From positions 3,299,001-3,363,000 of the forward strand of contig NZ_CP064356.1 of assembly GCF_018141545.1 (NCBI RefSeq): 64,000 nt of DNA, written 5' to 3'. The notes under the pieces were generated by a model. That model saw nothing but the letters and a program-made list of their open reading frames with translations, was not told the origin of the DNA and ran no database searches. Positions 20,109-24,409 of this stretch are shown piece after piece. This stretch comes from Miltoncostaea oceani (GTDB lineage Bacteria; Actinomycetota; Thermoleophilia; Miltoncostaeales; Miltoncostaeaceae). The position numbers and the translations under genes were made by a program. Every line of letters starts with the position of its first letter. Position 1 is the stretch's first letter.

Positions 20109-22070
20109 GTGGTGGGACGGTCGCTGGTCGTGTGTGCGGTGGCGGGCCTGGGCGTGGCGGCCGTGGTCGCCGGCGGCGCCGGGGGGCCGGCGGGCGGCGG
20201 GGCGCCACGCGCCGAGGACGCGTCCGCGCCGCGCCCGGCGCTGACGCGCTTCGCCACCTGCGACCGGTTCGTCGCGCACGTGCGGCGCCGGGCGCTCGCG
20301 TCGGTCGGGCCGTGGGGCCTGACGGGGAGCACCCCCGTGGCGGTGGCGGCGCCGGTCGCCGAGGGCGACCCGGTGCGCGCCGCGGCACCGGCCCCCGCCC
20401 TGGCGCCGGGGACGGACTTCTCGGACACCAACGTCCAGGAGGCGGGCGTCGACGAGCCCGACCTCGTCGAGACCGACGGCCGCACCGTCTTCGCGATCGC
20501 CGGGGGACGCCTCGAGGCCGTCGACGCCACCGGCGCCGCCCCGCGGGCCCTCCCCGGCCTCGACCTGCCCGGGATGTCGCCGAGCGGGCTGCTGCTCATG
20601 GGCGACCGCCTCCTCGTGATCGGCGACGCCGGGACACCCGGCCCGCCGCGGCCGGTGCTCGACACGGTGCGCATCGCCCCCGCCCCGCCGGTGCCGCCGG
20701 TGACGGTGGTCGTCGCGCTCGACGTCTCCGACCCGGCGGCCCCGCGCGTGCTGTCGCGCATGCGCGCCGAGGGCTCCCTCGTCAGCGCCCGCCGCACCGG
20801 GGGGACGGTGCGCCTGGTGGTCTCCTCGCACGCCCCCCACCTCGACCTCGTCACGCCGGCCGGCGCCGCCCGCGGAACGCGGGCCGCCCTGCGCGCCAAC
20901 CGGCGCGCCATCGCCGCCGCCCCGGCCGGCGCGTGGCTGCCACGCGTCACGGTGCGGGACGCCGCGACGGGCCGCACGGTGCGGCGCGCCGTCCCGTGCT
21001 CCGCCGTCAGCCGCCCGAGCCGCTTCGCGGGGCTCGGCACCGTCAGCGTGCTGACCGTCGGCGTCTCCGACACGCTCTCGCTGCTCGACACCGACGCGGT
21101 CCTCACCGACGGGGAGCTCGTCTACGCCTCTCCGACGGCGATGTACGTCGCGACCGCCCGGTGGTCGCCGCCGTCCGCCGCCGACGCACCCGTCGCGCCG
21201 CGGGGCGCGACCCTGATCCACAAGCTCGACACCTCCGACCCCACCCGCACGACGTACCGGGCGAGCGGCGTGGTGCCGGGGTACCTGCTGAACCAGTTCT
21301 CCCTGTCGGAGCACGCGGGCCACCTGCGGGTGGCGAGCACCGAGGAGCCGGACTGGTGGAGCCCACCGGAGGGCGCGGAGCCCAGCGAGAGCCGCATCAC
21401 CGTGCTCGCGCAGGACGGCGGGCGCCTCGTGCGGACCGGTGAGGTGCGGGGCCTCGGGCGCGGCGAGCGCATCCACGCCGTCCGCTTCCTCGGCGACCGC
21501 GGGTACGTCGTGACCTTCCGCCAGACCGACCCCCTCTACGTCCTCGACCTCGCCGACCCGGCCCGGCCCGTGCTGCGCGGGGAGCTGAAGATCCCCGGCT
21601 TCTCCTCGTACCTGCACCCCGTCGACGCGACCACCCTGATCGGCGTCGGGCAGGCCGCCGACGCGCGGGGCCGCACCCAGGGGACGCAGGTGTCGCTGTT
21701 CGACGTCACCGACCCCGCGCGACCGTCGCGCATCGCGCAGCGGACCCTCGACACCGACTGGTCCGAGGCCGAGTCCGACCACCACGCCTTCCTCTACTGG
21801 CCGGCGAACCGCCTGCTGGTGCTCCCCGCCCAGCGGTACGACGGGTCCGGCGGGGCGCCGTTCCTCGGGGCGGTCGGCCTCGACGTCTCCCGCACCACCG
21901 GGATCACGCCGATCGCCCGCATCACCCACCCGGGCGGCCCCGACGCCGCCTGGGCGCCCGTGCGGAGGTCGCTCGTCGTCGGCGGGGCCGTGCTGACGGT
22001 GTCGGAGACGGGGGTCCTCGCGAGCGACCTGACCACCCTCGCGCCGCGGGGCTGGGCGCCCTTCGACTGA
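20109..22070 (+). CDS. exported beta-propeller protein (Beta_propel family)
   Basis: A 653-aa protein. The N-terminal hydrophobic segment (LVVCAVAGLGVAAVVAGGAGG) acts as a signal peptide. The segment TDFSDTNVQEAGVDEPDLVETDG, near residue 100, is the hallmark of the Beta_propel family of secreted WD-like propellers. Later blades include LVVALDVSDPAAPRVLS, YVLDLADPARPVLRGELKIPGFSSYLHP and SLFDVTDPARPS. The family is of unknown function, possibly protein-protein interaction at the envelope. GGAGG precedes the GTG 20109 by 6 bases; the GTG codon just after is an alternative. Confidence 0.82.
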   Translation: MVGRSLVVCAVAGLGVAAVVAGGAGGPAGGGAPRAEDASAPRPALTRFATCDRFVAHVRRRALASVGPWGLTGSTPVAVAAPVAEGDPVRAAAPAPALAPGTDFSDTNVQEAGVDEPDLVETDGRTVFAIAGGRLEAVDATGAAPRALPGLDLPGMSPSGLLLMGDRLLVIGDAGTPGPPRPVLDTVRIAPAPPVPPVTVVVALDVSDPAAPRVLSRMRAEGSLVSARRTGGTVRLVVSSHAPHLDLVTPAGAARGTRAALRANRRAIAAAPAGAWLPRVTVRDAATGRTVRRAVPCSAVSRPSRFAGLGTVSVLTVGVSDTLSLLDTDAVLTDGELVYASPTAMYVATARWSPPSAADAPVAPRGATLIHKLDTSDPTRTTYRASGVVPGYLLNQFSLSEHAGHLRVASTEEPDWWSPPEGAEPSESRITVLAQDGGRLVRTGEVRGLGRGERIHAVRFLGDRGYVVTFRQTDPLYVLDLADPARPVLRGELKIPGFSSYLHPVDATTLIGVGQAADARGRTQGTQVSLFDVTDPARPSRIAQRTLDTDWSEAESDHHAFLYWPANRLLVLPAQRYDGSGGAPFLGAVGLDVSRTTGITPIARITHPGGPDAAWAPVRRSLVVGGAVLTVSETGVLASDLTTLAPRGWAPFD

Positions 22071-22146: not shown

Positions 22147-23358
22147 ATGCCGGGCATCGGCGGTGGAGGACGGGGACGGGGCGGGGCGGTCGCCGCGATG
22201 CGGCGGCGGCACGCGCAGTGGCTCGCGGGCCGCGGCGGGCGGCGCGCCAACGCCGGCGGGACCGACCTGGAGGGCGCCGACCTCACCGGCGCCGACCTGC
22301 GGCGCGCCGACCTCACCGGCGAGAACATGCGCGGCGCCCGGCTCACCCGGGCCCGGCTGTCGAACGCGGTCCTCTCGGGCGCGGACCTGAGCGGGGCCGA
22401 CCTCCGCGCCTGCAGCCTCGTCGGCGCCGACCTCGGCGGGGCCCGCCTGACCGGCGCCCGGCTGCAGGAGGCCAACCTCGCGGGCGCGAACCTGCGCCGC
22501 GCGGTGCTGCGCGACGCCGACCTGACGGGCGCGCACCTCGCGGACGCGGCGATGGAGGGCGCGGACCTGTCGGGCGCCAACCTGCTCGCCACCACCTGGG
22601 GCGACGGCGCCCCCGCACCCGAGCCGGTCGCGGCGCCCGCGCCGTTCAGCATGGCCGGGGCCGACCTGCGCAGCGCCGCCCTCGCGGGCTTCGACCTGCG
22701 CGGCGCCGACCTGACGGAGGCCGACCTGACGGGCGCCGACCTGCGGGGCGCGGACCTCCGCGGCGCCCGCCTCTTCCGCGCCCGCCTCGAGGGGGCGCTG
22801 CTCGACGGGAGCACCCTCGACGGCGCCGACCTCGGCGAGGCCGACCTGCGCGCCGCGCACTTCGCGGGCGGACCCGCGCGGGCCGCGGCGGAGACGGCCG
22901 CCACCGCCCCCGTCGCCGCGGTCGCGACCCCGACGGGCGGCATCCGTCCCGGCCTCGTCCTGGCGGCGGCCCTCGCGCTCGCGGCGAGCGTCGCGCTCAC
23001 CTTCGCCCTCCCCGCCCTCCTGGGCGGCGGGCACGAACCCCTCCCCTCCGCCGCCGCCTCCGCCCGACCGGCGGCGCCGGCCGTCGCGGCGCCGGCGGAG
23101 GTCGCGCTCGAGGCCGTCGGCCCGGAGGGGTCGTGGATCGAGGTGCGCGAGGGGACGACCCGCTCCGGGCGCCTCGTGTTCCGCGGGCTCCTCGGGCCGG
23201 GCTCCCTCCGCCCCGTCCCCCTCGGCACCGGTCTCTGGATGCGCGTCGGCAACCCCGACGGCCTGCGGGGGACCCTCGGCGACGAGGCCCTCGCCTTCCG
23301 GGGCGCGACGGGCGATTTCACCGTGGACGCGACCGGGATCGTGCGCCGGGCGGACTGA
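22147..23358 (+). CDS. pentapeptide-repeat protein with TM helix and RodZ-C-like domain
   Basis: A 403-aa protein with an unusual layout. Residues 39-148 and 169-238 are pentapeptide repeats (A[DN]LxG pattern, such as GADLTGADL), which fold as a right-handed quadrilateral beta-helix. A Pro/Ala linker follows, then one TM helix (268-291). The extracytoplasmic C-terminus (318-398) reads GSWIEVREG...GRLVFRGLLGPGS...LWMRVGNPDGL...ATGDFTVDATG, resembling the DUF4115 domain found at the C-terminus of RodZ. So a cytoplasmic beta-helix takes the place of RodZ's HTH. ATG 22147 follows a GAGGGGG stretch; ATG 22198 is a possible shorter start. Role unknown; an envelope or morphogenesis link is speculative. 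Confidence 0.8.
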   Translation: MPGIGGGGRGRGGAVAAMRRRHAQWLAGRGGRRANAGGTDLEGADLTGADLRRADLTGENMRGARLTRARLSNAVLSGADLSGADLRACSLVGADLGGARLTGARLQEANLAGANLRRAVLRDADLTGAHLADAAMEGADLSGANLLATTWGDGAPAPEPVAAPAPFSMAGADLRSAALAGFDLRGADLTEADLTGADLRGADLRGARLFRARLEGALLDGSTLDGADLGEADLRAAHFAGGPARAAAETAATAPVAAVATPTGGIRPGLVLAAALALAASVALTFALPALLGGGHEPLPSAAASARPAAPAVAAPAEVALEAVGPEGSWIEVREGTTRSGRLVFRGLLGPGSLRPVPLGTGLWMRVGNPDGLRGTLGDEALAFRGATGDFTVDATGIVRRAD

Positions 23359-23401: not shown

Positions 23402-24409
23402 ATGCCGCCCGTGCTCGACGTCTCCCTCGTGGCCTGGGCCGCGACGATCGCCCTCGTCCTGGGGCTGCTCGCCCTCGACCTGACCGCCACCTCCGGGGGC
23501 CGCGCGCACGTCGTCGGCTTCCGCGAGGCCGTCGCCTGGTCGGTCTTCTACATCGGCGTCGCCGTCGCCTTCGGCATCGTCTTCGGGATGCTCGCCGGCT
23601 GGGACTACGGCACCGAGTACTTCGCGGGCTACATCGTCGAGAAGAGCCTGTCGGTCGACAACCTCTTCGTCTTCGTGATCATCATGACCACGTTCGCGGT
23701 GCCCCCCGAGCACCAGCAGCGGGTGCTGACGTTCGGGATCATCATGGCGCTGGTCCTGCGGGCGATCTTCATCGCCCTCGGCGCGGCGCTGCTCGCGGCC
23801 TTCTCGTTCATGTTCCTGCTGTTCGGGCTGCTGCTGCTCTTCACCGCGGTCCAGCTGTTCCGGCACCGCGACCAGGACCCGACGATCGAGGACAACAAGA
23901 TCGTCGCGTTCGCGCGACGGCGGTTCTCGATCACGCCCGACTACGTCGGGGGGAAGATCGTGACGAAGGTCGGCGGCAAGCGGATGCTGACCCCGATGTT
24001 CCTGGTGCTGCTGACGATCGGCACCACCGACCTGCTGTTCGCCCTCGACTCGATCCCCGCCGTCTTCGGCGTCACCGAGGAGGCCTACATCGTCTTCACG
24101 GCGAACGCCTTCGCGCTGCTCGGGCTGCGGGCCCTCTACTTCCTGGTGTCGGGGCTGCTCGACCGGCTGGTCTACCTCTCGACGGGCCTCGCGCTGATCC
24201 TCGCGTTCATCGGCGGCAAGCTGGTGCTGCACTACGCGCACCTGCAGAACAACGACATCCCCGAGGTCTCGACGAACCTCTCGCTCGTCGTGATCGCGGT
24301 GATCCTGACGGTGACGACGGTCGCGAGCCTGGTGAAGTCGAAGCGCGACCCGACCGCCCGCGCCCACGCCGGGACGCTGCGCGAGCCGAAGAAGCCCCGG
24401 GAGGGCTGA
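23402..24409 (+). CDS. TerC family integral membrane protein
   Basis: A 335-aa protein with about eight TM helices. The TerC signature FAGYIVEKSLSVDNLFVFVIIM (residues 77-98) and TDLLFALDSIPAVFGVT (near 210) contain the conserved acidic residues thought to bind metal. TerC/Alx proteins export manganese or load it on secreted enzymes; some belong to tellurite-resistance loci, but no other ter gene is here. A basic tail (KSKRDPTARAHAG) ends the protein. The 43-bp upstream gap is too short for a yybP-ykoY manganese riboswitch. Convergent with the next gene through a shared-stop hairpin. Confidence 0.9.
   Translation: MPPVLDVSLVAWAATIALVLGLLALDLTATSGGRAHVVGFREAVAWSVFYIGVAVAFGIVFGMLAGWDYGTEYFAGYIVEKSLSVDNLFVFVIIMTTFAVPPEHQQRVLTFGIIMALVLRAIFIALGAALLAAFSFMFLLFGLLLLFTAVQLFRHRDQDPTIEDNKIVAFARRRFSITPDYVGGKIVTKVGGKRMLTPMFLVLLTIGTTDLLFALDSIPAVFGVTEEAYIVFTANAFALLGLRALYFLVSGLLDRLVYLSTGLALILAFIGGKLVLHYAHLQNNDIPEVSTNLSLVVIAVILTVTTVASLVKSKRDPTARAHAGTLREPKKPREG

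Follow-up and report, generated by a model that had tools for sequence, protein, structure and literature searches.

The question raised by this locus is whether a gene that appears to join a pentapeptide-repeat helix to the outer domain of RodZ is genuine and, if so, what its product might do. The gene is a 403-aa open reading frame (22147-23358, plus strand) in the window, the whole stretch of 64,000 nucleotides of Miltoncostaea oceani DNA that was analysed computationally. A preliminary description had proposed the order pentapeptide helix, transmembrane (TM) segment and RodZ-C-like domain, and Pfam, hydropathy and AlphaFold2 all confirmed it. The fusion gene is real and intact, is architecturally new within the scope searched and is made from two well-known modules. 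With a probability of about one half, we read its product as a lineage-specific intact chimaera that acts as a bitopic envelope scaffold or localiser. The features of the gene are as follows, with the evidence for each in brackets.

22147..23358, plus strand: whole gene, 403 aa, pentapeptide beta-helix, TM helix and RodZ_C (ORF, Pfam, codon composition).
22147..22260, plus strand: basic N-terminal cap, residues 1-38, net charge +8, helix at 11-28 (alignment, model, charge).
22261..22590, plus strand: pentapeptide block 1, 22 repeats, residues 39-148 (Pfam, repeat count, model).
22591..22644, plus strand: insert between the blocks, residues 149-166, beginning TTWGDG (alignment, model).
22645..22869, plus strand: pentapeptide block 2, 15 repeats, residues 167-241 (repeat count, model).
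22870..22950, plus strand: cytoplasmic juxtamembrane linker, residues 242-268 (model, hydropathy).
22951..23016, plus strand: single TM helix, residues 269-290, with the model helix at 269-286 (model, hydropathy).
23017..23097, plus strand: disordered Ala/Pro outer linker, residues 291-317 (model, pLDDT <50 at 286-309).
23098..23355, plus strand: RodZ_C (PF13464, DUF4115), nine strands, residues 318-403 (Pfam, alignment, model).

The gene starts at ATG 22147 or ATG 22198. GC content at codon positions 1, 2 and 3 was 0.83, 0.64 and 0.97, and the third-position values (GC3) were 0.99 in the repeat part, 0.96 in the linker and 0.98 in the C-terminal part. GC3 of 0.96-0.99 across all parts indicates that a single frame is coding from end to end. 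A frameshift or assembly artefact was ruled out, as the two halves share a single frame and a uniform codon composition and the contig is 3.68 Mb long. A scan for promoters and terminators found none near the start or end of the gene.

The protein scored 165 bits against Pfam Pentapeptide (E 1.6e-49). We counted 37 repeats (22 + 15), close to the earlier estimate of about 36 in two blocks, and each block was in clean five-residue register; shuffling the protein sequence 500 times gave repeat runs of at most 5. The tandem A(D/N)LxX repeats and the predicted beta-helix that mark the pentapeptide-repeat superfamily were both present. Similarity to DUF4115 had been expected at residues 318-398, and the RodZ_C profile (PF13464) matched at 25.4 bits in the whole protein and at 29.5 bits in the C-terminal 87 aa against a Pfam cut-off of 23.9 bits, the expected boundaries being correct to within a few residues (318-401 in the model). 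Only one hydrophobic segment was detected, at residues 268-292, where the best 19-residue window reached 2.47 at residue 270; outside residues 262-300 the best such window was 0.98. No curated family with this build was found in Pfam or NCBIfam, in agreement with the preliminary description, which had known of no named one.

The predicted structure bore out the proposed layout. With an alignment of proteins collected in the present analysis as input, AlphaFold2 gave a confident beta-helix for both repeat blocks (pLDDT about 90, one strand per five residues), one TM helix at 269-286 and a nine-strand outer domain at 318-401 (pLDDT about 95); the outer domain modelled alone reached 95.8. In Foldseek the repeat part matched designed solenoids, NP275-NP276 and HetL. 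Fold relatives of RodZ_C were absent from the PDB at E <0.001, and the sequence search with RodZ_C gave one weak match only (E 0.006), so that kinship of fold offered no lead. From the basic N-side of the protein (+8 over residues 1-38, the outer side not being basic), the failure to see a signal peptide and the single hydrophobic segment, we infer that the topology is probably N-in.

The fusion was found in none of the other genomes of the family (1/42, the present genome only). It was also absent from about 400 genomes of the class and about 400 genomes of the phylum, in both cases among the best matches listed, where a weak and distant case may be overlooked, from 84,980 species scanned twice and from plasmids. 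The second of these scans returned known RodZ_C loci of Thermoleophilia MAGs and one short, weak Streptomyces match. In the literature, the one paper that mentions both 'pentapeptide repeat' and 'RodZ' draws no link between them. As no fusion orthologue was found, the joined gene may be of recent origin or serve no purpose.

The neighbouring genes encode a luciferase-like oxidoreductase, a beta-propeller protein and a TerC/Alx protein, and none is a shape gene. The propeller gene ends at 22070, upstream of the fusion gene on the same strand, and the TerC/Alx gene (23402-24409, plus strand; NCBIfam, 366.6 bits) follows downstream after a 43-bp gap. In the sister genome G003 the TerC, luciferase-like and beta-propeller genes lie within about 5 kb with no pentapeptide or RodZ_C gene. 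There TerC precedes the luciferase-like and propeller genes, whereas in the fusion genome it is downstream of the fusion gene, which indicates that the neighbourhood has been rearranged.

The repeat half was 45-50% identical to pentapeptide proteins of related genomes, all without RodZ_C, in an alignment that included the HxxWL cap and T-x-W-G/S insert. The cap motif HAQWLAGRGGRRAN (within fusion residues 1-38) was common to pentapeptide relatives without RodZ_C, and the T-x-W-G/S motif of the insert was also kept in pentapeptide relatives. The best relatives, from four genomes (G017, G001, G002 and G013), were open reading frames about 430-550 codons long, which have both the HxxWL cap and the insert and in which no RodZ_C-like tail was seen on reading. 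The same genome encodes a 461-aa pentapeptide homologue (G000:C1 near 947 kb) with no RodZ_C by Pfam. All five relatives continue into further repeat blocks. At the locus of the own-genome homologue (L024:2236-3947, minus strand) the HERWLAG cap motif and the repeats are in different frames; the sequence there suggests a possible frameshift or a different start.

Compared with 12 family members, to which it is only 29-42% identical, the RodZ_C of the fusion has lost none of the positions that are invariant or nearly so, which indicates that the domain has been under constraint. In the RodZ_C tree its branch, of 1.26 changes per column, did not join the clade that holds the canonical RodZ of the same genome; its neighbours were an ABC-ATPase fusion and a lineage of accessory HTH-RodZ proteins, a grouping that is unsupported (32/0). 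Descent of the tail from the own RodZ was not rejected (AU p 0.106); the best tree places the tail elsewhere. The accessory HTH-RodZ_C gene adjoins an M42-peptidase-like gene in four genomes (G004, G009, G015 and G018; loci L117, L119, L135 and L136), and a rhomboid-like gene flanks its other side in three of the four, both names having been given by reading of translations. Both the genome of the fusion and G003 have the rhomboid-M42 pair, with no accessory gene found there in either. The accessory RodZ lineage is a plausible donor of the fusion tail and serves as a lead.

RodZ_C without an HTH is rare, and we saw it twice, on different cores and in one genome each. The second case came from a Thermoleophilia MAG (G008:C25, JANQPH010000055.1; L032:532-2067, plus strand), in which one ORF encodes a DrrA-type ABC ATPase (ABC_tran, 97 bits), a TM and RodZ_C (35.1 bits), with an ABC-2 permease gene next to it. 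Of the RodZ_C ORFs read at about 45 loci, all others had an HTH by eye. The ABC ATPase fusion indicates that RodZ_C is separable from its HTH, and the results suggest that the RodZ_C tail is a transferable module. A wider proposal, tentative and in our judgement rather unlikely, is that RodZ_C with its TM would be an envelope-localising tail which moved from the accessory RodZ lineage onto unrelated cytoplasmic cores (the beta-helix; the ABC ATPase elsewhere in the family) and would direct them to sites of cell-wall synthesis without MreB.

On the favoured reading, with an envelope scaffold or localiser as the most likely role, a soluble pentapeptide-repeat protein would have had its last repeat blocks replaced by a RodZ-type TM-linker-RodZ_C tail. 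The resulting protein would have a rigid beta-helix in the cytoplasm and, beyond a single TM helix and a flexible linker, the RodZ_C beta-domain on the outside. RodZ_C, and perhaps also the TM, would hold the protein at envelope sites through contacts with membrane proteins, those of wall synthesis or others, and the beta-helix would offer a long docking face to a putative cytoplasmic partner, which would not be MreB by the usual HTH contact. A localising role of the TM and outer part is supported by E. coli RodZ, truncated forms of which localise to the division site even when most of the cytoplasmic part is gone (PMC6946637). Against a scaffold at the envelope, the outer domain of E. coli RodZ is largely dispensable for rod shape (PMC6946637), and the neighbouring genes give no pointer to envelope growth. 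To see in the product a new envelope protein, as was suggested before, is reasonable, on the basis of a single genome.

Chief among the rival readings is a young, non-functional chimaera, that is, a recombination accident in which a recent in-frame fusion has no selected role as a whole and is bound to decay. The two halves would then still fold because each had been selected before the fusion. The occurrence in one genome with no orthologue agrees with this, as does G003, which keeps the three neighbouring genes side by side without the fusion, but the reading frame and codon composition are intact over all parts and the invariant RodZ_C positions have been kept despite the long branch. We regard an accident as possible, though on the unlikely side.

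RodZ_C occurs twice in the genome, in the fusion and in a canonical RodZ. The latter has the order HTH_25 (81.9 bits), TM and RodZ_C, and its gene lies 1.3 Mb from the fusion gene between ftsK and cinA-recA (names by reading of translations); MreB is also encoded (508.8 bits). The presence of both canonical rodZ and MreB indicates that the fusion is an addition, not a replacement. The fusion protein shares with RodZ the single TM between cytoplasmic and outer domains and the RodZ_C outer domain, but a Pfam scan at E up to 10 found no HTH in it, and we do not class it as RodZ since the HTH defines that protein. Its gene is outside the ftsK-rodZ-cinA-recA locus, where canonical rodZ occupies the place. 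The HTH of E. coli RodZ contacts MreB (PMC6946637), and MreB coupling of the fusion protein is doubtful because this MreB-binding domain is missing. It could nevertheless be a variant RodZ of the MreB elongation complex, in which the beta-helix would take over from the HTH in contacting MreB or reading curvature. Such a role fits the presence of MreB in the genome and the layout of the protein, which runs as in RodZ from a cytoplasmic domain through the TM and a disordered linker to a nine-strand RodZ_C. We consider this role improbable given the missing HTH, the canonical rodZ in its standard locus, neighbours unrelated to shape and the HTH kept by all other RodZ_C proteins read in the class, bar the one ABC fusion. 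The preliminary description stood as regards architecture, DUF4115 and the lack of a curated family; functional kinship to RodZ or MreB gained no support.

A role of MfpA/Qnr type, as a DNA mimic or topoisomerase guard that RodZ_C would tether to the membrane at the envelope, is very improbable. It was rejected because the scores are far below the NCBIfam cut-offs (MfpA, 79.3 of 360 bits; Qnr, 50.1 of 240 bits). The beta-helix matches QnrB1 and MfpA in sequence and fold, but designed consensus solenoids and HetL-type proteins match it better, so that the resemblance is generic. The helix also carries a net charge of only about -8, and 20 of its residues are basic. The scores for Alr5209 (116.5 of 125 bits) and HetL (113.4 of 260 bits) were also below the NCBIfam equivalog cut-offs.

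The role of the RodZ outer domain is poorly understood, and the present results suggest that this domain is reusable on unrelated proteins. Natural RodZ_C fusions without the HTH are RodZ halves separated in evolution, and they provide ready-made constructs for finding the binding targets of RodZ_C. Each such fusion is known from one genome. The significance of the Miltoncostaea oceani fusion is moderate, since it occurs in a single genome and its role is a predicted one.

Four known systems may be compared with the fusion. RodZ (HTH_25, TM and RodZ_C/DUF4115; E. coli RodZ, B. subtilis YmfM) resembles it in the TM, the disordered outer linker and the nine-strand RodZ_C, in equal order and orientation; the B. 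subtilis outer domain has nine strands by NMR, as cited in PMC6946637, and so has the modelled RodZ_C of the fusion. Unlike RodZ, the fusion has a pentapeptide beta-helix and no HTH in the cytoplasm, lies outside the ftsK-cinA-recA locus and coexists with a canonical RodZ. MfpA, Qnr, HetL and Alr5209 form the same right-handed quadrilateral beta-helix of pentapeptides, but they are free proteins without RodZ_C, below whose curated cut-offs the fusion scores. The soluble HxxWL-cap pentapeptide proteins (G017:C87, G001:C295, G002:C104, G013:C99 and the homologue at G000:C1:947 kb) have repeat blocks as in the fusion, the four from other genomes also the cap and the insert, and they have further repeat blocks instead of the TM and RodZ_C. 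In the DrrA-type ABC ATPase fusion of G008, too, RodZ_C and a TM of its own form the tail of a cytoplasmic domain other than the RodZ HTH; there this domain is an ABC ATPase, with an ABC-2 permease gene behind it.
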